A stretch of 64,000 nucleotides of DNA from Choricystis sp. odSpoLacu1 (lineage: Eukaryota > Chlorophyta > Trebouxiophyceae), in the NCBI GenBank assembly GCA_958009055.1, contig OY253652.1, positions 868,001 to 932,000 of the forward strand. Reading direction: 5' to 3'. Every line of letters starts with the position of its first letter. Within the stretch, counting starts at the first letter, position 1. Made by a program: the position numbers and the translations under genes. Below the pieces are notes generated by a model. The model worked only from the letters and a program-made list of their open reading frames with translations. It had not been told where the DNA came from and did no database searches. This document shows positions 4,994 to 50,506 of this stretch, one piece after another.

Positions 4994-7361
4994 TCACTCG
5001 CCCGACCGCCGCCGGTGCGCCCGCCCGCGCACGTGGGCGGCATGCGCGTCCAGGCCGGTGCTTTGCACCCCACACGGCTCGCACGCGTACGTGTGGGCAG
5101 CCGCGACGGCGGCGCGCTGGCGGTGGGCGGCGGCGGCAGCGGCAGCAGCAGCAGCAGCAGCAGCGTGCGGGTGGGGCTGCCAGTGGCCATAGTAGCCGTG
5201 TGCCACGGGGGCGCCCCCGCCATAGTAGAAGGGAGGGGGTGCAGGCGCCGCGTAGAAGGCGGGGGCGCCGTAGCCCGCGGCAGCAGCGGCGGCCGCAGCG
5301 TGAGCCGCCGCGACAGCGGCCGCGCTGGCGCCACCACCACCCCCACGCGCCCCACGCCTGCGAGGGCGCCTGTCCCCCGGCTCCCCAGGGGACCGGGGGG
5401 CCAGGTCGGGGGAGGGTGGGGGGGAGGAGGCGCCAGGCGCAGACGCGGCCGCGCTCTCAGCCGCCGCCGCAACCCGCGCCAGCTGCGCAGCGTGCGCCTT
5501 GCCCGCCATGTGGGCGGCGTGCGACTTGGGGCAGTCGGTGCGCACGGAGCAGTTGGTGCACTCGTAGAGGGTGGGTTCTTCTTCGGAGGCAGCGCCAGAG
5601 GCAGCGTCGTCGTCGTCGGCCGCCGCCGCATCGTCGCCATCCCCATCCACCGCCGCCGCCGCCACCGCCGCCGCCCGCCTGGCGTGGCTCTTGCCTGCCA
5701 TGTGCATGGCCAGGTGGTCGGCCGACGTGGTGGCCACGTCGCACAGGGGGCAGTGGTGGGGCGAGGCAGCGTCGGCGGGTGGGGCGTGCACGCCCGCCGC
5801 CGCGGCCGCGGCCGCCCGCGCATCCGCGCGCCGCCTGTGCTTGCGCCCCGCCAGGTGGGCCTCCAGGTGGGGGCCCGACGTGGCGGTGACGCCGCACACC
5901 AGGCACTCGTGCAGGCCGCCGCCGCCAACGTGGCCGTCGGCGGCGGCGGCGGCATCGCCCCCTCCCTCCGCGGACGCGCGGGCGGACCCTGCTTCCTGGA
6001 TCCCATCCAAATATTCGCGCAGGTCCATGGAGGAAGGCAGCGCGATGGAGCCCAGGCGGACGCAGGGGAAGGAGGCGTCCGCGGGGAAGAGGGATCCGGT
6101 GGCGCCGCCAGACGCTGTGCGCGCGAGCTCTGCGGCCGCCGCATCGCGCGGCGCTGATTTCAGCCACGCCAGCCGGCGCGCGTGGCGCCGGCCGCGCACG
6201 TGGTCTTCTAAGTTGGCAGAAGACGTGGCGACGACGCCGCAGGCGGCGCAAAAGTGGGCGGCAGCGAGGGAGAGGGAGCCGCCAGCGGGAGCGAGCGTGC
6301 GCTGCGGTGGGGGCCGCGGCACAGCCTCACCCCCCGCCTCCTCCCGATCGTGCGCCGAATCATCGTCATCGTCGAAGCGCACCGATTTGGCGGATTTGAC
6401 CGCGTCGGCCAGCGTGCCCGCCCGCGCAGACAGCGCGGAGCGCAGCGGCGCGCGCGCGACGGGGGGCGGCGCCCTTGCCGCGGCAGCCTCTGCCTCCTCC
6501 GCCCCATCCGCAAACGGGGATCTGGGGGTGGAGGGCAGGCGGCGCACACTGGAGGCGACGCTGCCGTCATCGGACGGGCGCAGGGCGGAACCATCAGAGG
6601 AGGCAAGCACCGCTTCCGCCGCGCGCGCGGCCGCGCGCGCGGCAGACGCGTCCGCCGCCACCCGCCTCTCCGACCGAGCATGTTTGGCTGACGCCACATG
6701 AGCAGCAGCGTGGTCCAGGGTGGGGGCGGTCACGCCACAGTCGGCGCAGTGGACGTCCAGGGGGGGGGGGCAGGGCGGGGCGGCCGCGCGCGCGTGGCGC
6801 GCACCGCGCGCGTGCTGGGCCAGGGAGGCGGCCGAGGTGGCGGTGACGCCGCAGTCGAAGCAGCTGGGGATTGTGTGTGGTGTGGAGGGGAGAGGGAGGT
6901 GAGTGTGGGTGGGGAGGGAGGTGGGGTGTCTCGCCCTCGTCTGTGTCCTGCGGTGCGAGACGACGAAACAACGCGACGGCCCGAGGGGCCGTGCGCGCAG
7001 CGCGGCGTGCGCCAGCGCGAACAAGAACGACGCCAACCACCTTCCCACCCCTCACACTGCACGCTTCAGAGTGTCGTGCGTGGCTTGGGAGCTGCCATCG
7101 CGGGTGCGAAGGCACGGGGCGCGGTCGGTGCGGGCTCAAAGTCTCTGTTTCTCACCTATGCGGCGTTTTGCCATCAGCCTCGCCTCGCGGCGTGAACTCG
7201 CCGCCGTCGCCTCGCTCCTCCTCCGACGCGACCGACGGCCGCGCCGCGTCCACACACGCTGTCGCGTTGGCCGCCACGTCCAGGGAGGGCGTGGAGGAGG
7301 GGGACTTGGCGAGCGGGGGCGGGGGCGCGGAGGGCGACGCCGCGGGTGCGGCGTCCGTCAT
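4994..7361 (-). CDS. Seven-finger C2H2 protein of dsRNA-binding/U1 type
   Basis: Exons 7361-7156 and 6863-4994 (phase-2 intron) encode 691 residues. Seven zinc fingers have the spacing C-x2-C-x12-H-x5-H, typical of U1/matrin and ZNF346/JAZ-type fingers that bind double-stranded RNA rather than DNA. Examples begin CFDCGVTATS, HCADCGVTAP, FCAACGVVAT, ECLVCGVTAT, HCPLCDVATT, ECTNCSVRTD and ACEPCGVQST. The first two are adjacent; the rest are separated by long Ala/Ser/Pro- or acidic linkers. Near the C-terminus is a poly-Ala tract encoded by a GCT repeat (about 5137-5163). An ATG at 7391 would add ten residues; 7361 was chosen as the simpler start. Role inferred: RNA binding, perhaps nuclear. The finger class is clear, the exact orthologue is not. 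Confidence 0.85.
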
Positions 7362-19969: not shown

Positions 19970-22900
19970 ATGATGCTGGTAGGCGTTCCTACGCACGCGG
20001 CGCCGAGCCGTGGGCCCCGCCTGCCGCCCCGCCGCGTTCGGCCTAGCGCGGCCGTGCGGGCGCCGACTCGCATGCGCGCTGCGGCGGGCGACGTGGAGGC
20101 CGCGCCCGACACACCGGTCCCTCAGGTGAGATTAAGAACTCAAATCAAGCAGCCCGGGGCAGTGGGGGAGTGAGAAGAGGTGGCTGTGGGTTGGGGCGGC
20201 ACACAACAGACACATGCAGCGAGTCCGCGAGACCGACGAGCGAAAGCACAAGCTCGCCGCCCGCTCACTCGCCGCCCGCTCGCCTTCCTCTCCCCCACCC
20301 CACCAGCCCGCCTTCCCCCCTCCCTGCCCTCCATCCCTGCGGGCCGCCCTGCTGGCCCCCATCCTGCTGGGCGCCACCCTGCTGGCTCCCAAGACCGCGA
20401 CCGCGGCGGGGCTGTGGTGGCCGGTGTCTGAGCCGGGAACGCGCACCGGGGGCGCCAGCCACGCCGCGGCCTGGCGCGGTCCCCGTGGCGGTGCGGCGTC
20501 CGTGCGCAATGGAAGCGACGGCGGCGTGGCCGACGCCGCCGGCCACACCGCGCTGTGGTGGCCGGTGTCGCCCGCTGCCTCCGCCTCCACCCGCACGCGC
20601 ATCCCCCTCGTCGACACCGCCCTGTCCGCCGTCGACACCGTCGTCCCCGCCACCGCAACCGCCGTCACCAGCACCCTGGACGCGGTGGGTGGCGCGGCGA
20701 CTGGCCTGGCGAAAACGGCGACGACCGTCGTCGACGCGGCGGTCGACGTCGCCGCCATCATGCTGGACGGCGCCTTCGAGGCGGGCGCCACCAGTGTCAC
20801 CTCTGTCGCGCGCGGCGTGCGCGCGGGCGCGGGCGTCGCCGGCGGCGTGGTGGACGCGGTGGTGAGCGGCGCGCTGCCGGCGCGGCCGGCGGCGCGCGCG
20901 GCGCCCGGCGCCGCCGACAACCGCCTGTGGTGGCCGGTGGCCGGCGTGGCCGTGCCTGGCAGCGCTTCTGGTGGGGGCGGCGGCTGGCGTGCGGGCGGCG
21001 GTGGCGGCGGCGCCCGCTCCTCCTCTGCGCGTGGCGCGTCCGCCGCCTCGGCGCGCACCGCGGCCGCCCCGGGCGCCGACGCCTCCAGCGGCATCATCTC
21101 TGACGTCGCGGGCGGCGTGCGCGGCGCGGTCGGCGGTGTTGCCGGTGCCGCGCGCGGCGCGGTCGGCGGCGTCACCGGCGCCGCCCGCAGCGCTGTTGGT
21201 AGCGTCACCGGGGCTGCCACCAACGCGGCGGGCGCCGTGCTGGGCGCGGCGGCGGACGCTGCGGGCGCGGTTCCTCACGCACTGCTGGGCTCCAACGCCG
21301 CCGCCACCGCGCCCGAAGGCGCGGCCGACCACCGCTTGTGGTGGCCTGTGTCAGGTGGTGGCAAAGCGGCGTCCGGCGGCAGCGCTGCCCCCACCCGCGG
21401 GTGGGCCTTTGGCAGCAGGTCCAACGCCGCCGCACGCGGCGCCTCCTCTGCCGCCAAGCCTGCCGCCTCTGTGCGCAACGCGGCCGCCACGGCTACTGAC
21501 GCCTCCAACGGCATCATCTCAGACGTCGCGGGCGGCGTGCGCGGCGCGGTCAATGGCGTCACTGGCGCCGCGCGTGGCGCGGTTGGCAGCGTCGCGGGCG
21601 CTGCGCGTGACGCGGTCGGCGGCGTCGCTGGCGCCACCCGTAGCGCGGTCGGTGGCGTCACCGGGGCCACCCGCAGCGCGGTTGGTGGCGTCACCGGGGC
21701 CGCCACCAACGCGTTGGGCAGTGTGCTGGGCGCCGCGGCCGAGGCGGCGGGCGCCCTGCCTCACGCACTGCTGGGCTCCAACGCCGCTGCCACGGCGCCC
21801 GATGGCGCCGCCGACCACCGCCTGTGGTGGCCCGTGTCGGGCGGTGGCAAGGAAGCGTCGTCTGGCGGCGCCACCGCGGCCGGCTGCGGGTGGGGCTTTG
21901 GTGGTGGGTCGAGCGCGCCCGCCGGCAAAGCGTCCGCCGGCAAAGCATCTACCAGCTCTGCAGGCGGCAGCTGGGGCGCCAAGGCCAACACTGGCGCGGG
22001 CGCCAGCTCCAAAGCTGGTGGCGGCGGCAGCGGCGGCGGCGGCGGCTTGACCAGCGGCGTCCGGTCCGCCGTCTCTGGCGTCACCGACGCCGCCAAGACC
22101 GCCGTCGGCACCATTCTGAGCGCACCGGTCAACGCGGCCGGCACCGTGCTGGGCGCCGCGGCCGACGCGGCGGGCACCATCGTGGGTGTCCCGGTCAACG
22201 CGGCGGGCAGCGTGCTGGGCGCCGCGGCCGACGTCACTGGCGCCGCCAAGTCGGCGGTCGGCACCATCCTGGGTGTCCCCGTCAACACGGTCGGCTCTGT
22301 ACTGGGCGCTGCCGCCGACGCGGCGGGCGCTGTGCCGCACGTTTTGGTTGGGTCGTCCGCCACCGCGCCCGCCGCGCCGGGCGCGGCCGACCACCGCCTG
22401 TGGTGGCATGTGTCGGGTGCCGGTGCGACCGCGGCCGGCTCTGCGGCCGGCTCCACCGCCAGCAAAGGCGGCTTCAACTTTGGCGGCGGGTCGACCGCCA
22501 AGGCAGCCGCGCCGGCGACCGCGTCGACGGGCGGCATCCTCAAATCCGCCGTGTCTGGCGTCACCAACGCCACCAAGTCGGCTGTTGGCACGCTTGTGGG
22601 CGTCCCCACTAACGCGGCCGGCACCGTGCTGGGCAAAGCGGCCGACGCGGCGGGCGCGGTCCCTCACATGCTGCTCGGATCGTCGGCGGCCGCGACCGCA
22701 GCCCCCGGCGCGGCCGACCACCGCCTGTGGTGGCCCGTGTCGGGCGACCGCGCGACCGCGACCGGCTCTGTGACCAGTTCTCCGGCCGGCAAAGGCTTTA
22801 GCTTTGGCGGCGGGTCGGCTGGCAAGAGCGTCGCGTCTGCCCCTGCGTCGACGGGCGGTGTCTTGAGATCCGCCGTCTCGGGCGTCACTGGCGCCGCCAA

Positions 22901-25900
22901 GTCGGCTGTCGGTACCATTTTGGGTGTCCCTGTGAATGCGGCTGGCACCGTGCTGGGCAAAACGGCCGACGCGGCGGGCGCCGTGCCTCACTTCTTGGTC
23001 GGATCGTCGGCTGCCGCACCCGCGGCCCCTGGCGCCGCCGACCACCGCCTCTGGTGGCCCGTGTCGGGCGGCGCCGCCACCGGCTCTGGGTCCACCCCCG
23101 CCTCCACGGGCGGCGTGCTCAAGTCCGCCGTGTCCGGCGTGACGGGGGCCGCCAAGTCGGCTGTTGGCACCATCCTGGGTGTCCCCGCCAACGCGGCGGG
23201 CGGCGTGCTCGGCAGGGCGGCCGACGCGGCGGGCGCGATTCCACACGCGCTGTTGGGCTCCAACGCCGCCCCTGCCGCCGCACCGGGGGCGGCCGACAAC
23301 CGCCTGTGGTGGCCCGTGTCGAGCGGCGGCGCTGGTGGTGGTGGCGGCGCCGCGCGCGGCGCTAGCCGGAACGTCGGCTCTGCCACCCGTGGCGCCGCCT
23401 CTGCCACCCGTGGCGCTGCTCGCGACGCGGGCCTGCGCGGCGCCGTGTCCAAGAGCGGCGCGGGCGGCCTGCGCGGCGCGGCCTCCAAAGCCGCCCCCTC
23501 CGCGCGCAGCGGCGGAGTGGGCGGCGTGGGCGCCAGCCTGCGCGGCGCGGTGGACGATGCGCGCGACACGCTGTCCAACCTGGTCAACTCGGTGCTGCCG
23601 TCGGGCGGCAGCGGCACGGTTGATGCCAAGAAGGCCGCCCGCGGCGCCAAGGCCGCCGCCACCGGCTTCTCAGCTGTGCCGATCGCCGACGCCTTCCTCG
23701 ACGGCGCCGGCCGCGCCGCCGCGAACGTGGGCACCTTCGCCGCCGACGCCGCCCACCACACCAAGGAGGATGCCGGCGTGCTGGCACGCGCGCTGGGGCG
23801 CGCGCCGCGCGCCGCAGTCGACGCGGTCGAGGACGGCGTCGCGGCCACGGTCGTCGGGTACGAGCGCCTGGTGCGCGCGTGGCTGCTACGCGGCCCCCTG
23901 GACGCGCGTGACACGCGGGCCATTGTGACGGGCGCGTACTGGCTGTTCCTGATCGCGGCCGCCGCGCTGGCGGGTGGGGAGCCGCGGTTCGATGATGGTG
24001 AGCCCGCGTTTTTGTTCGGCTGGAGCGACGCCAAGGGCAGGCGCGGCGCGCCGTCCGGATCCACCGGTGCCTGGCCGTCCGACGACGGCAAGGACGCGTT
24101 CATGTATGGCGACAGCACCGACCGCGGCCTGCTGGGCGGGTTCAGCGGCAGCGGTGGTGTCGCCACCGCGCCGCGCGGTTCCGTTACCAACACGCCGCCC
24201 CGCTCCCTGGCCCCCTCGTTTGCTGCCACCACCACGCCCACCCCCCCCACCAAAGCCTCGGGTGTGGTCGTCGACCCGGAGGGCGGCTGGATGGTGGCGG
24301 ACGGTGGCGCGGGCGGCGGCAACGCCGCGCGGTCGGGCGGGTGGACCGCGACCACCGCGTCGGCTGATGAAGTCCTGCCCGGCGGCGCCACGCCCGGCGG
24401 CGGCCTGGTCAACAAAGTCACCAACTGGTGGGCGGGGGGTGTCGCCCCCGCCAAGGCTGCCCCCGACGCGGCCGCCGCCGACGGCCCCGCCCTGGCCGAC
24501 CGCGCGCGCGCGGCGCTGGACGGTGGCTCTGCGGCCGCAGTCGACACCGCGCGCGCAGCTGCCAAACAAGCCGCCGACACCGCCGGCTCCGCCGCCCGCG
24601 AGACTCAGGACGCGGTGCGCGCCGAGCTGGCCGCCCTGCGCGCCACCGCCAACGCGGCCGCCGACGCGGCCGCGCGGCGCGGGCGCGGCGTCGCGACCGG
24701 CGACATCAAGGCCGCGCGGTCCGCGGCCGACGCGGTCGACAAAGCGGCCGCCAGCCTGGACGCCGCCCTGGACCGGCTGACACGCGCGGGTGACCGTGCG
24801 ACCGCGAGGGACACGGCGGCGGTGGAGGCCGCGCTGGCCGAGGTGACGGCCGCCCGCGCGCGCGCAGAGGCTGCGACGACAGCCGCCGCGCGCGCTGTCG
24901 CCGACGCCACCAAGACAGCCGCCAACGCCGCCACCGAGGCCGCCCGCAATGATGCCGCCACCGCGCGCGGCGCCATCGACGCCGCCGTTGCGGCCGCCGC
25001 CGACGCGGCGACCGCCGTCAAGCGTGCGCTCGCCGGGTCGCGCGCCGCCGCGCCCGCCGCCGCCGCGCGCAACGCGGCCGACGTCGCCCTCGCCACCGCT
25101 CGCGCCGCCGCGGACGAGGTTGACGCCGCGGTTAGCGCCCTGGACGCCGCCCTGGCCCGTGGCGCGGACGCGGCCACCGTGGAGGCTGCACTGGCGACGG
25201 TCGACGCGAAACGCGCTGCCGCACGTGAAGCCGGCGCCAAAGCCGCCGCCGCCGCGGACGCCGCCCGCGCTGCGGCGGCCAACGTGGCCGCGGAAGCCGC
25301 CCAGGCGGCGGCCGCCGCCATGCGCGTGGCGAGGGACGCTCAACGCGCGGGCGCCGCCGAGCTGACTGCAGCCCGCCGCGCAGTGCATGGCGCCCAAGCC
25401 GCGTTTGACCGCGCGGCAGCGGAAGCCGCTGCCGCCATGGGTGGCGACGGCCCCGCCGCCGCGGCTGCAGTGGCAGTCCGCGACGTGGCCGCTGCCCAGC
25501 TGACCACCGCCAAGGACGCGGCGGCCGCGGTGGAGGCGGCGCTGGCCAAGCTGGAGACCGCCCTGGCCGACGGCGGCAGCAGCGACGGCGGTGCCGCCCT
25601 CCAAGCCGCCACCTCGGCTGTCGACGCTGCTCGGTCCACCGCCAAGGATGCTGCCACCCGCGCTGCGGCGGCGGCCGACGACGCGCGCCGCGCCGCGGCC
25701 GCGGCTGCCGCTGAGCTGCGGTCGGCCGCTGCCGACGCGGCGCACGCAGCCAAGAATGCTCGCAGCGCTGCCACCGGTGAACTCACCACTGCCAAACGCG
25801 CCGTCGCATCCGCGGAAGCCGCCCTGCAGCGTGCGGCGGCGGACGCGGCGGACGCGGTGGGCGACTCGCCCGCCGCGCGCGCCGCGCGCGTCGCCAAGGA

Positions 25901-28900
25901 AGCCGCCGCGACCGAGCTGGCCCGCGCCAAGGGAGCGGCCGCCGCCGTGGAGGCGGGCGTCTCCGACCTGGAGCGTGCCTTGGCTGAGGGGGGTGGCGCC
26001 CTGACTGCGGCGGGCACCGCCGCGGTTCGCGGCGCGGTCGCGAACGTCGACGCCGCGCGCTCGACCGTGCGCGCTTCTCTTGAAGCCCTCACCACCGCCG
26101 CCGACGGCGCCCGCGCCGCGGTGGCGGCTGCCGTGGATGAAGGCCGGGCCGCCATCGATGCCGCCGCGTCGGGCGGGCGGGCGGCCCAGAAGAGGGCAGC
26201 CCTCGACCTCGGCACCGCGTCGCGCGCGGTCAGCACGGCCGAGCGCGCTGTCGCGGCTGCCTCTGCCGACGTGGACGCGTCCGACCCGGGCTCGGCCGCA
26301 GGGCGGGCGGCGAGGGCCGCCCTGGAGACGGCGCGGTCCGATCTGGCGTCCGCCCAGGCGGCTGCCAACGCGCTGGAGGCGGGCGTGGGAAAACTGGTGG
26401 CCGCGTTGGCGGCGAGTGGGGACGGCGCCTCTGCAGACGCGGCCGCCACCCTGACCACCCTGTCGCGCGAGGTGGAGGCTGCCGCCGACGCGGCTCGGGC
26501 TGCTGGGTCCAAAGCGGCTGGCGCGGCGGCCGACCTGTCGCGCGCTGCCAGTGTGGCGGGCGATGAAGCGCGCGCGGCTGCCGCCACGGCCGACGCGCGC
26601 CGTGCTGCAGACGCCGCCCGCGAAGCCGCCACTGCGGGCGTCCACGATGCTCGCAAGGCGCTGATGGACGCTCGCACCGCTGCAGCCGATGTCGCGGCGG
26701 TCAAGGGCGACTCGCCCGCCGCGCGCGCCGCGCGTGCTGCGAGTGAGCGTGCGGATGCTGCCGTCCAGGCCGCTGAAGCCGCCCTGGCGGCCGCCACCGA
26801 GGGTGCCGCCCGCCTGGATGTTGTTCTGCAGAATGGTTCCACTGACGCGGTGGCGGCCGCCACGGCGGCGTTGGAGGGGGCGGTGCGGGACACAAAAGCG
26901 GCGGCTGGCCGCGCGGCCGACACGGGCGCAGTCCTCAAGCAAGCGATTGCCGTCGTCGCCACCGAAGCTGCGGCCGCGCTGGAGGCGGCTGCGGCCAAGG
27001 GGGTCGCCCTGCGCACCGAGGCAGCCCGCGACGTCGACACCACGAAGCGTGCCGTCGCCGACGCGGGAGCATCCGCGCGCGCGGCGCTTGAGCGCGCGGC
27101 GGGCGCCGACGTGTCGCGCGCCAAGCAGGCCGCTGAGACCGACCTAGCGGCCGCCACGCAAGCCAGCGCTGCCCTGGACGCCGCCCTGCGTGCCCTGGAT
27201 GACGCCCTGGCGTCGCGCGGCTCGCCCTCGGCGGTGGAGGCCGCGACGCGCGCGGTCGCCGACGCGCGGGCGTCCACCCGCGCTGCCGCCGACCGCGCCG
27301 CCACTTCGACCGCCATCCTGGTGTCCGAAGCCGACCGCGCCGCATCTGCCGCGGCTGCCGCCATCGAGGCAGCCGTACGCAACGCGTCCGCCGCGCGCGG
27401 CGCGGGCGCGGCCGAACTGGCGTCCGCGCGCAAAGCGTTGGCCGACCTCGAGGCCGAAGCCAAGAGTGCTCTCTCCGCCGGCATCACCGGCGACGGCCCT
27501 GCCGCCGCCGCCGCGCGGTCCGCCAAGGCCAAAGCCGACGCCGAGCTCGCGACCGCCTGGCAGGCGTTGGGGGCGGCGGAAGCCGCGCTGGCGAGGCTGG
27601 AGGCGGCTGTGGCGACTGCGTTTAACGGTGGCAGTGGTGACGTCGCGTCCGCGCTGGCGACCGCCGCGAAAGAAGCGGACGCCGCGCGCGCCGCCACCCG
27701 GTCGGCGGGCGACCGCGCCAAGGCGGCAGCGTCCACTTTGGCGTCCGACGTGGCGGCCGCAGTGCGCGAGGCGGCGGCGTCCGCCGCTGCAAAGACGCGT
27801 GAAGCGGCGTCGACTGCTGCTGCCACAGCGTCCGGCGTCGCAGCACGCGCGGCCGACGCGGCCGACGCGGCGCGCGCCAAGCTGGAGGCCGCCCGTGAGT
27901 CGGGTGACGAGCGCGCCATCTCGGCCGCTGAAGCGGGGTTGGAGGCGGCCCTCAAAGCAGCCACCGACGCGGTCGCCGCAGCCGAGGCGTCTGCGGCCAG
28001 TGCGCGCGCCGCGGGCGCAGCTGGGCTCGACGCCGCCCTGCGCGACCTGGCAAAAGCGCGAGACACAGCGCGTAAGGCGGGCCTCGCCAAGGCACGCGGC
28101 GCTGCGGACGGGGGCGGTGTGTCGTCCGCGCTGGACAAGCTGGCCGCGGCGCGTGATTCAGTCAAGCGCGCGCTGTCGCCGACCGCGGCCAAAGCAGCCG
28201 CAGACGCGGAAGCAGCCGCCGCGGCCGCCGCCCAACAAGCGGCCACAGACGCGGCTGACGCGGCTGTGGCTGCAGCGGAGCGCAAGAAGGCGGCCGCTGC
28301 CGACCGCGCGCGCGCAGAGGCGGACGCGGCGGCCGCGGCCGCCGCGCGTACGCGTTCGTCGTCCCCGGCCGCGATCGCGGCCATCACTGCGCGCGCTGAG
28401 CGCGCCAAAGAAGGCGACTTGGCGGCCCTGCTGGCTGAAAAGGGGGAGGGGTCGCCTGCGATGCTGCTGGTGTCGCTGGTGAGTCTGGTTGTGGACATCC
28501 TGTCCGGCCGCAAACCGCGTGGCCCGATGCCGATCGCGGGCCCGCCCGCGCCGTCTCCTGTGAAGGCGTTGGCTGATGTTGTGGGCTCGAGCCGGCGCAG
28601 CGGCGCCGCTGCGGCCGCGGCCTCGTTTGAGGGGCCGTCCCCCCCGCGCGTCAAGTCGGGCCTCGACCCCCTCGCCCAGCTGGACCGCATCCAGCCTCCT
28701 GGTCGCGCTGGCTCGGGCGGCCCGGGCGCCGACTTTGTGCGTTCGATCGTGCGCGGGCTGGCCGACGCGGCCGACGCGCGCGCGGCCGCGCGCCGCGCGC
28801 GCGCGAGCGGGGGTGGTGGCGCCGACGCCTCGGTCGCCCGCTTCACCGGCAAGGCCAAGTTTGACCCGCTGGCCAACCTGGACGCTGTGACGCCGCCCGG

Positions 28901-29309
28901 GTACTCCCCATCCGCGGGTGGCATCCGCCTGGCGTCGTCGGCCAAATCAAAATACGACCCCGTGCAAAACATCCTGTCCGCGTCCGCGCCGCGCGGCACG
29001 CCGGACGGGCTGGAAGGCGCCGTCCTGGGCGCCCTCCGCTGGCTGCGGTCGGGTGGGCGCGGTGGTGGCTCCTCCTTCATGCCGTCATCGTCGTCTTCCT
29101 CCTCTGCCTCCTCTGGCCGTGGGCGCGAGTACTGGGAAGGCTACCGCGCCGGCAGCGGCGCCTGCTCCTACGGCTCCGCCGCCGAGCCGGAGGCTGTGCG
29201 TGGCCGGCGGTACCCGCAGGGGGCGCGCTACCGGGCGCCGCGGCGCATGTTTGCGCCCGCCGCGCCGCCGCCGGTTGACGTGGAGGGGGTGGCGCCGCCG
29301 CAGGGGTGA
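19970..29309 (+). CDS. Giant plastid-targeted Ala/Gly-rich repeat protein, unknown family
   Basis: Exons 19970-20125 and 20307-29309 (phase 0) encode 3,052 residues; exon 2 is 9 kb and uninterrupted. Residues 1-52 are Arg/Ala/Pro-rich, like a plastid transit peptide. Residues 63-80 are hydrophobic and precede KTATAAG, as in thylakoid-transfer signals. Nine LWWPV motifs (Leu at 88, 135, 259, 396, 558, 750, 859, 967, 1052; one WWHV), mostly as DHRLWWPVSG, close modules of Val/Ala/Gly 11-mers. Gly-rich linkers hold GWAFG- or FNFGGG-type aromatic motifs. A membrane span lies at about 1257-1276. About 1450-2750 is Ala-rich helix with roughly eight repeats of 112-142 residues, landmark GDSPAARAAR. 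The tail has DPLAQLD (2839), DPLANLD (2905) and DPVQNIL (2936). I recognise no family; a plastid scaffold or membrane-shaping role is inference. The start is the first Met of the spliced presequence. Confidence 0.85.
20409..23330 (+). repeat. Nine-module LWWPV repeat region
   Basis: This coding repeat holds nine LWWPV motifs spaced 47-192 residues apart. A typical module has a Gly-rich linker, a hendecad helix (GAVGGVTGAAR-like units), a PHALLGSNAA-like end and GAADHRLWWPVSG. Copies are similar at the DNA level but not identical, so they are old or under protein-level constraint. Confidence 0.9.
24702..27890 (+). repeat. Coding tandem repeats of about 112-142 residues, Ala-rich coiled coil
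   Basis: Aligned landmarks (GDIKAAR, GSRAAAP, GDGPAAA, GDSPAARAAR, DPGSAAGRAAR, GDSPAARAAR, GADVSRAK, GDGPAAAAAR) fall at residues 1518, 1630, 1766, 1905, 2045, 2187, 2320 and 2448. Each unit has an ELxxAxRAV helix before the landmark and an LExALA-like segment after it. Confidence 0.75.
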
Positions 29310-29627
29310 AACAAACAACAACGGGGGGCGAGTGAGAGAGTGAGAAAGAGAGAGAAGCCCGCCATACTACTTGAGGCTTAAAAGGCGCGGCGCTGGTGTT
29401 TTCTTTTTTTGTTGGATCGTTGAGAGTGAGGGGGTGGTGGGAGAGGGCGAAAGGAAAACGGGCCGACGGGGCTGGGGTCGGCGATGGTTTTTTTGTTTTC
29501 CAATTCCCTTCCCCCACTTATTTAGGCGCGTGTAAGATGGTACAAAAAGAAGGAGCGTGTGCGAGCGACGCGCCGCGGGCTTTGAGCCCGTGGACGCGGC
29601 TCCAACGTGATCTTTTAAACAATTTTC
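29310..29627. other. Convergent 3' flank
   Basis: This 318-bp gap lies between the giant gene (+) and the GNAT gene (-). It holds T-rich and purine-rich runs and a plus-strand TGTAA at 29531-29535, 222 bases after the stop. No gene seen. Confidence 0.5.
29531..29535 (+). promoter_or_regulatory. TGTAA polyadenylation-type motif
   Basis: TGTAA in the 3' flank of the giant repeat-protein gene, the only plus-strand copy noted before the next gene. Confidence 0.4.
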
Positions 29628-31459: not shown

Positions 31460-31668
31460 GACTGGGCAAACCAGACAGCTTCAGAGAGGTTGGAGGACTG
31501 ACACGGGGGCGCGAGAAGCGCGGACTCCACCCCCAACCGAAGTGTTTTTTATCGAGCGAAAACACGTCGCTTGTGTTGGTTTCAGACCGACAATCTCTTG
31601 CCAATCGAAACTCCTCCCTCCGCCCCCGCCCAGTTCCGCGCAGCCACAAGACACACGCACACACTACT

Positions 31669-32499
31669 ATGCTCCTGCGCGCCCGCACAACACGCACCCT
31701 CCCTCGCGCGGAAGCGGCCGACCGCGCGCCAACCGCCGCGCCCGCGCGCCGCACCGCGCCCGGCGCTGCGTCGCCCACTCACGACACCCACCCCGCCCCA
31801 CTCCTCCTCTCCCGCCGCACCCTGCTGGCTGCCGCCCCCACCCTGGCGGTCTTGGCGCGCCCCCCTGCCGCGTCCGCGGGCGCGGCCGCGTCCGTGGAGT
31901 CGTACCTTCCCGCCTCGTCGCGCGGCGACGGCTACGTCACCTACACCGCGCCCAAGACGTCCACCCCCTCCCTGCGCGCGGGCGTGTTGGATGCAGCCTC
32001 CCCCTACACGTTTGACTTGCCAGCGTCCGGCGGCTGGCGGGCGCAGACTTTTTCGAATGTGCTCTCCGGTCAGTTCTGCATGCCGCGCTGCGACGAACCG
32101 TTCACCGAAGTCATTTTTTCATCAGAGGACGGCGCGACCGCCCGCCTCGTCGTCTCCCCCCTGCGCCGCGTGTCGCGGCGCGCAGCAGCGGCCAGTGCGA
32201 CTGAAGTCGGCACATCCGACGGCCTGCTGGGGGCGTTGGGGCCGTTTATCACCAACAACATCGCGCCCGACGAGTCAGAAGTCGTGGCGGTGACGACCCT
32301 CCGCGCAGGCGGAGACAGGGTGGGCGACGCCTACCTGTTCGAAACCAACACGCCCTACGGGCTGACGCCACCCCGCGCGTACGCCACGGTGGCGGCCAAG
32401 GGGGCCCACGTGTACCTGTTTGTGGTGGCGGCGCCGGAGAAAGCGTGGGGCAAGCTGAAGGGGACGCTGCGGACGGTGGCGGAGAATTTCCGGCCTTGA
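31669..32499 (+). CDS. PsbP-domain thylakoid lumen protein (PPD6-like)
   Basis: A single exon of 276 residues. The bipartite presequence has an Arg/Ala-rich plastid part and a twin-Arg segment, SRRTLLAAAPTLAVLARPPA, ending ASAGA, typical of Tat import into the thylakoid lumen. The mature part is a PsbP fold: YTFDLPASGGWRAQTFSNVL, SGQFCMPRCDEPFTEVIF, LLGALGPFITNNIAPDESEV, LTPPRAYATVAAKGAHVYLF and AWGKLKGTLRTVAENF. The CxxxC pair and the order of blocks resemble plant PPD6 more than the oxygen-evolving PsbP. Its role in plants is poorly known. The ATG at 31669 starts the presequence. A TGTAA lies 45 bases after the stop. Confidence 0.9.
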   Translation: MLLRARTTRTLPRAEAADRAPTAAPARRTAPGAASPTHDTHPAPLLLSRRTLLAAAPTLAVLARPPAASAGAAASVESYLPASSRGDGYVTYTAPKTSTPSLRAGVLDAASPYTFDLPASGGWRAQTFSNVLSGQFCMPRCDEPFTEVIFSSEDGATARLVVSPLRRVSRRAAAASATEVGTSDGLLGALGPFITNNIAPDESEVVAVTTLRAGGDRVGDAYLFETNTPYGLTPPRAYATVAAKGAHVYLFVVAAPEKAWGKLKGTLRTVAENFRP

Positions 32500-49656: not shown

Positions 49657-50506
49657 ATGCGGCTCCCCCTTGCCTCCCCGCGCGCGTCGGCGGCGCCTCC
49701 GCCGTCAGACGCCACATGCCACACCGCACCCTCCCCTCCCGTCGCCCCCCGCCGCGCCGCGCTGCTGGCTGCCGCGGCGGCCGCGCTCGCGCGACCCCGC
49801 CCCGCAGCCGCAGTGCAAGGCCTCACCGCTGGCCGCATCCCTGGCTTATCACCCGATTCAGACGGGTTCAACCTGTACACTCGCCCCGTCGGCAAGTCAG
49901 GCGGCCACGGCGTCGGGTGGTCTGAGATCCCGCGCTACTCGTTCCGCGTGCCCGCCGGCTGGGACGAGACGCCTGTCTCCATCGCCGACCTGGGCGGCAC
50001 CGAGATCGACCTCCGGTTTGCGTCCCCCGGCGAGACGGACGGCACGCTGGCGGTTGTCGTGGCGCCCGTGCTGCGGTTTGTGGACCTGCCGTTCAACTCT
50101 GATGTTCGGATTAAAGATATCGGCGATTCAGACACCATCATCGCCGGGTTTGCGCCGGAGTTGTTTGGGGCGCCGTTGGAGCAGGGGGACGTGGTGAGTG
50201 GAGTGTGTGTGTGGGGTGGGTGGGATGAAAAACAAAGGCAAGCCTTCACACTCCCCACTCATCCACCCCCCCCCCCCTTTCCCCTTCCCTCAGACTGAGA
50301 CCGTCGTCTCCAAAAAGGGAGGCCTCACCTACTACACGTGGGCCATCCGCCCTCTGACAGGGACGACGACGTATCATCTTGCTTCCGCCACCGCGGTCCG
50401 CAACCGCGTGTTCATCATTGCCGTGGCCGCCAAGGCGAGGGCCATGCGGAGGATGGGGCCGCAGTTGAGGACGATTGTGGACTCGTTCCGCGTGGCCGGA
50501 GCGTGA
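49657..50506 (+). CDS. PsbP-domain thylakoid lumen protein (PPD4-like)
   Basis: Exons 49657-50193 and 50294-50506 (phase 0) give 249 residues. The presequence has Ser/Ala/Pro-rich plastid sequence, then APRRAALLAAAAAALARPRP and AAAVQG, a Tat-type lumen signal. The mature part is a PsbP fold: GFNLYTRPVGKSGGHGVGWS, IPRYSFRVPAGWDETPVSIA, GTEIDLRFASPGETDGTLAV, APVLRFVDLPFNSDVRIKDI, then TETVVSKKGGLTYYTWAI and RRMGPQLRTIVDSFRV. The GWSEIPRYSF and PVLRF blocks resemble plant PPD4. Its function is not established. It is divergent from NDUFB7 and tail-to-tail with the DEAD-box gene. Confidence 0.9.

Follow-up and report, generated by a model that had tools for sequence, protein, structure and literature searches.

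The 64,000-nucleotide window analysed here (contig OY253652.1, positions 868,001–932,000, of the Choricystis sp. odSpoLacu1 assembly GCA_958009055.1) contains a gene for a very large repeat protein carrying nine LWWPV-type motifs, all of its features lying on the plus strand. The protein is real and unusual, and its plan looks more like that of a membrane-surface scaffold than that of a Rubisco linker. We tentatively favour, as a reading somewhat short of probable, a single-copy nuclear gene for a giant scaffold at a membrane surface, probably plastidic, with helices on lipid and LWWPV peptides docking a partner. By way of a transit peptide and a hydrophobic leader, the protein would enter the plastid and reach, or pass through, the thylakoid membrane. 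There, spacers made of 11-residue repeats, unfolded in water, would fold on lipid in the manner of Plin4 and alpha-synuclein, with the chain lying along the membrane. Where the helices end, unstructured gaps would hold the LWWPV peptides, to which a partner protein would bind at regular intervals. Rod and tail would extend away from the membrane, the overall effect being a multivalent array on the membrane surface. A preliminary description of the locus had proposed a sticker-and-spacer protein with soft linkers and had compared its motifs with the Trp stickers of algal Rubisco linkers; the sticker reading was half right, whereas its soft-linker and Rubisco parts are unsupported.

The spliced gene model contains nine copies of LWW[PH]V (eight LWWPV, one LWWHV), which begin at residues 88, 135, 259, 396, 558, 750, 859, 967 and 1052 and are separated by 47, 124, 137, 162, 192, 109, 108 and 85 residues, confirming the nine copies, seven with DHR or DNR, and the 47–192-residue spacings described previously. 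Seven copies share GAAD[H/N]RLWW and within it differ only at the His/Asn position, with DNR in copies 3 (20925–20939) and 9 (23304–23318) and DHR in copies 4 (21336–21350), 5 (21822–21836), 6 (the LWWHV variant, 22398–22412), 7 (22725–22739) and 8 (23049–23063). Copies 1 (20412–20426) and 2 (20553–20567) are without D[HN]R and read AGLWWPV and TALWWPV, respectively. A peptide that represents the motif reads GAADHRLWWPVSG. Across the nine copies, no Trp of the pair is changed to Phe or Tyr. Aromatic residues are otherwise few, in line with the rarity of Trp remarked on earlier, since 18 of the 31 between residues 87 and 1075 belong to the WW pairs and Tyr is absent. The four aromatic-FG elements reported earlier are likewise present (residues 418, 581, 775 and 883), and an aromatic residue or pair follows the motif at a distance of 20–25 residues in six of the nine copies.

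Composition shuffles of residues 87–1075 (n = 2000) yielded a mean of 0.0005 motif copies and a maximum of one; because the copies arose by duplication, however, a codon comparison is the better test. Six modules (4–9 of the nine) were aligned and the 13-codon motif was set against the other 44 codons. Per site, the motif shows 0.036 nonsynonymous differences and 0.298 synonymous ones (pN/pS 0.12), compared with 0.217 and 0.478 in the remaining codons (pN/pS 0.45). The value for the motif is the lowest among all 45 windows of 13 codons and was matched by 0.9% of 20,000 column permutations, a test that assumes exchangeable columns, although neither the columns nor the fifteen module pairs are independent. 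Across these modules the motif keeps its protein sequence while its synonymous sites change, which fits specific recognition and agrees with the earlier suggestion that a conserved, repeated Trp motif could serve multivalent binding. The same comparison bears on a plainer explanation, in which this is an ordinary lineage-specific low-complexity protein that grew through tandem duplication of GC-rich DNA and serves a structural purpose or none in particular, its motif being conserved mainly through the youth of the copies. Tandem repeats with lengths of 324 and 255 bases are indeed present in the DNA, and the protein has no Pfam family and no relative that was found. Constraint is nevertheless uneven within the repeat unit (0.12 versus 0.45), synonymous divergence amounts to 0.30–0.48, and the 9-kb frame is the only positive one of six, so we regard this explanation as quite unlikely.

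The open frame runs from an ATG at 20214 to a stop at 29309 (3031 codons). The span originally flagged (20409–23330) lies inside this frame, but the frame continues to 29309 and is approximately three times longer. A tentative first exon (19970–20125, 52 codons), proposed from splicing and composition, can be joined in phase across a tentative 181-nucleotide GT-AG intron in phase 0 (20126–20306), recognized by sequence inspection, to the main exon (20307–29309, including the stop), giving a model of 3052 residues. With a codon model trained on four reliable coding stretches, positions 20307–29306 score 771.7 in the frame of the gene, whereas the remaining five frames score between –270 and –2673. 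The usual polyadenylation signal of green algae, TGTAA, is found at 29531–29535, 222 bases 3′ of the stop codon.

The stretches between the motifs are not the soft linkers that had been described: of the 968 residues from the first to the last motif, 507 consist of 11-residue amphipathic repeats, with units such as SAVSGVTGAAK, SAVGTILGVPA, NAAGGVLGRAA and DAAGAIPHALL. Among these stretches we delimited one amphipathic segment, h3 (20601–20888), and six amphipathic 11-mer segments, h4 (21084–21290), h5 (21507–21773), h6 (22047–22355), h7 (22530–22679), h8 (22854–23003) and h9 (23112–23261). The moment peaks at 96–100 degrees in all seven segments (z 3.9–9.0 at the peak, relative to 20 shuffles). 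For twelve 33-mers the moment at 98.2 degrees averaged 0.305, compared with 0.109 ± 0.016 (maximum 0.154) in 500 shuffles. Over whole segments of 50–103 residues the moment is 0.215–0.318, which is equalled by 0–0.52% of the control windows (1507–1879 of equal length). These controls were cut from 37 coding-like segments located elsewhere in the window, as delimited by a first codon-model segmentation whose training set held one wrong-frame segment (10 stops). Among 319 single control 33-mers, 2.5% attain 0.305; what is exceptional is thus the length over which the periodicity stays coherent, rather than its strength. Aromatics make up 0.4% of the spacer residues. An AlphaFold2 prediction for an 83-residue module derived from the six aligned modules is mostly unstructured, with a mean predicted local distance difference test (pLDDT) of 43.7, and its quality does not allow a fold search. 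It contains low-confidence helices at residues 3–24 and 32–41, a short turn at 49–52 and three residues within the motif region, the motif itself being nearly all coil.

These properties resemble those of Plin4 and alpha-synuclein, with which the spacers share 11-residue repeats, 3-11 helix periodicity, richness in Ala, Gly, Val and Thr, few aromatics and a weak moment. By a similar measure, the mean moments published for Plin4, alpha-synuclein and Plin3 are 0.257, 0.30 and 0.35, respectively (PMC5889406, Table 1), aromatics account for 0.2% of Plin4, and 11-mer helices of this kind are unfolded in water and folded on lipid (PMC5889406). The spacers show the perilipin-family trait of 11-mer repeats that could adopt a 3-11 amphipathic helix. 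Unlike in Plin4, however, there is no single unbroken helix of 968 residues here, the spacers being 50–103 residues long and interrupted by LWWPV, and charged residues make up 9% of the spacers compared with 15% of Plin4. In addition, the repeat protein has a rod and a tail, and lacks a significant Perilipin match: PF03036 gave 10 bits (cut-off 33, expectation value E 0.42) in one of seven gene pieces and no match with the whole frame at E up to 1.

Such likeness also invites the suggestion that LWWPV is a lipid staple, with the Trp pair seated in the membrane interface and anchoring the ends of the amphipathic helices without any protein partner. Like Plin4, the protein would then form a coat, either on plastoglobules or thylakoid margins or, should it not enter the plastid, on lipid droplets. 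The motifs come straight after amphipathic repeats, the properties of the 11-mers fall within the Plin4–synuclein range and no partner-type sequence is known. A generic anchor should tolerate variation, however, whereas the D-x-R and Pro-Val context is exact in seven of the nine copies and Trp never gives way to Phe or Tyr; moreover, the helices of Plin4 (0.2% aromatic) are without such Trp staples. We consider a lipid staple somewhat unlikely. Strict retention of D-x-R-L-W-W-P-V with an unchanged Trp pair speaks rather for recognition of a partner than for plain lipid anchoring, as our preferred scaffold reading would have it.

Further parts of the protein flank this array. The tentative exon 1 is rich in Arg, Ala and Pro, and its first 40 residues include eight Arg and no Asp or Glu, a composition resembling that of a transit peptide. 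It is followed by a hydrophobic leader (residues 60–85, 20328–20405, Kyte-Doolittle 1.61) that ends in ATATAA immediately ahead of the first LWWPV and is thylakoid-transfer- or signal-like, of the lumen type. Together, the putative transit peptide and leader make plastid targeting, which the preliminary description had stated outright, plausible. A second hydrophobic segment (residues 1255–1276, 23913–23978, Kyte-Doolittle 1.91) is a possible membrane span; directly after it stand two DDGxxAFxxG elements (residues 1281 and 1311, 23991–24110). An alanine-rich helical rod of 1,334 residues follows (residues 1431–2764, 24441–28442), built from repeats of ~140 residues. The one unit that was modelled with AlphaFold2 is predicted to comprise three helices (pLDDT 86.2, predicted template-modelling score 0.71); a spectrin-like rod of tandem three-helix units is a candidate, and the structures matching this model are generic helical bundles. 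The rod leads to a third hydrophobic segment (residues 2765–2788, 28443–28514, Kyte-Doolittle 1.86) and to a tail at the end of the protein, in which three DP[L/V] motifs occur, LDPLAQ, FDPLAN and YDPVQN (residues 2838, 2904 and 2935, 28662–28970).

The arrangement is reminiscent of Chlamydomonas MITH1, which is described as an extended coiled coil attached by its N-terminus to pyrenoid tubules (PMC13345187, a preprint), the likeness being one of plan only. By analogy, the protein could form a plastid membrane brush, with its N-terminal half on a tubule or thylakoid membrane, the rod pointing outward and the DP[L/V] tail binding the matrix; a Rubisco-binding motif was not found in the motif search, and we judge this version improbable. 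Chlamydomonas MITH1, SAGA1/2 and RBMP2 are large plastid proteins that tether membranes or starch to other structures, and the repeat protein would be comparable in that respect. The SAGA1/SAGA2 traits, CBM20 and a Rubisco-binding motif, are both missing, however: Pfam matched neither CBM20 nor rhodanese in the whole frame (E up to 1) or in the seven gene pieces. A bolder proposal, which we consider unlikely, is a new kind of chloroplast membrane organiser, in which a lipid-zippered chain would display nine identical docking peptides, each with a Trp pair, on the surface of a thylakoid or tubule and send its rod and motif-bearing tail into the opposite space, joining the membrane to a condensed or crystalline protein array.

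The preliminary description had itself remarked that a hydrophobic segment argues against a plain stromal Rubisco linker, and the leader, at Kyte-Doolittle 1.61, upholds that remark. The protein shares repeated short motifs with EPYC1, CsLinker and PYCO1, and a functionally equivalent linker of Rubisco or the pyrenoid matrix would use the LWWPV stickers to cross-link Rubisco. The Rubisco-binding motif of Chlamydomonas reportedly has the pattern [DN]W[RK]xx[LIVA]. Neither this pattern nor the PYCO1 stickers KWSP and GTGYNP occur in the repeat protein, and kinship with the EPYC1 or PYCO1 stickers is not supported; as linkers share little sequence, this absence excludes only the known stickers. 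A repeated Trp motif would suit a linker, the PYCO1 sticker including an essential Trp (PMC10288592), and green linkers have little sequence in common (PMC11570498). The genome also contains two matches to the Rubisco small subunit (RbcS) and one to the LCIB family, making a CO2-concentrating mechanism possible. Against this, there are the leader and two further hydrophobic segments, helical spacers and the 1,334-residue rod, and the motif is confined to one gene, unlike the Chlamydomonas motif, which is described on several pyrenoid proteins (PMC13167743). Four of the eight spacings (47, 109, 108 and 85) lie within the 20–120 residues of the FLIPPer criterion by which CsLinker was found, the other four being longer. 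Were the leader to deliver the modules to the lumen, Rubisco would be an improbable partner, and on balance we hold a Rubisco linker to be highly improbable.

Several points weigh against the membrane-surface scaffold that we favour. Exon 1, on which plastid targeting depends, scores below zero in the codon model (–0.219 per codon), and the other possible start, ATG 20214, is likewise negative (–0.129 per codon); in a neighbouring PsbP-like protein the leader reaches a value close to zero (–0.023), leaders thus being ill suited to a codon test. Were the leader cleaved in the lumen, the topology would be uncertain owing to the second hydrophobic segment. Lipid binding by the spacers is hypothetical: amphipathic 11-mers are also found in water-soluble bundles, Pro, Asn and many Gly break up the segments, and the segment limits were chosen after inspection, which favours high moments. 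The lower synonymous divergence of the motif (0.30 versus 0.48) means that its identity may partly reflect recent copying, and the partner protein is hypothetical.

If the scaffold reading is correct, one chain would combine lipid-folded 11-mer helices with a strictly kept Trp recognition peptide, and would offer a peptide-sized handle on plastid-membrane organisation in very small algae, where a lack of conservation makes pyrenoid and thylakoid scaffolds inaccessible to sequence searches. Should it be wrong, ‘sticker and spacer’ readings should still check their spacers for amphipathic helices.

Across the genome (14.59 Mb, 19 contigs), all seven matches to degenerate DNA encoding D[H/N]RLWW lie in this gene, with none for the backwards control; the motif is private to this gene within the genome. 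A looser LWWPV pattern gave 10 matches, eight of them in this gene, with two for the backwards control. The only other coding-looking LWWPV lies on contig C13 (frame L010, 2608–3210), where it reads WLWWPVGG within WLWWPVGGATGA, the product presumably being an HVA22/TB2-like membrane protein. Unlike the repeat protein, this product has a single LWWPV in a hydrophobic, hairpin-like context and no DHR; the resemblance may be accidental, or may indicate that LWWPV is suited to membrane interfaces. A match on contig C7 is read by no listed frame of 150 amino acids or more. A text search of a collection of papers did not find the strings LWWPV and DHRLWW.

The preliminary description had named a lack of relatives with LWWPV as evidence against itself, and none was found in the range searched, protein lengths of ~792–1666 residues lying outside it. 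Frame residues 60–1150, compared with database proteins of ~1667–5304 residues, gave 2787 candidates and none at E 0.01, and a 452-residue piece, compared with proteins of ~249–791 residues, gave 8000 candidates and none at E 0.1; in both, low-complexity words may have displaced a relative. In Pfam, the whole frame (scanned at E up to 1) and seven gene pieces returned weak sub-threshold matches and no family, and a 435-residue query matched no solved structure at E 1. The motif pattern occurred in 90 viral and 139 prokaryote stretches, none of which was confirmed, in contig collections not meant for algae. Within the genome, queries with the C-terminal 289 residues and the 452-residue piece, which include neither the rod nor the first modules, find no gene but this one. 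As a control, the neighbouring PsbP-like protein retrieved three proteins, the best being 85% identical over 99% and encoded on a 59.8-kb contig, so that the DNA of a close relative is at least partly in the database. Hence the repeat protein is either fast-evolving, absent from that relative, located off the 59.8-kb contig or within the length band outside the searches, and the absence of relatives is a limit of the search and no proof of an orphan gene.

The host is probably a photosynthetic green alga, judging from 26 genome matches to the light-harvesting family (some weak or single exons), the RbcS matches and an S-adenosylhomocysteine hydrolase whose nearest structure is PDB 3ond, which we take to be the lupin (plant) enzyme. 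The neighbouring genes are of ordinary kinds: ATAD3- and RabGAP-type genes lie upstream of the repeat gene on the opposite strand, and an acetyltransferase and the PsbP-like gene downstream. The latter (31666–32496, plus strand) lies 2.4 kb away and has a typical Arg-Arg lumen leader, its Pfam PsbP match of 20.3 bits being slightly below the cut-off of 23.5. A second PsbP-like frame (49657–50298, plus strand) has a lumen-type leader and a weak Pfam match (13.3 bits). On the minus strand, a long low-complexity frame at 1178–2404 with repeated SLCVCV units is probably a simple DNA repeat, and a frame at 5030–6871 contains repeated Cys-x2-Cys units (CFDCGVTA..., CADCGVTA..., CEPCGVQS) that resemble zinc fingers.

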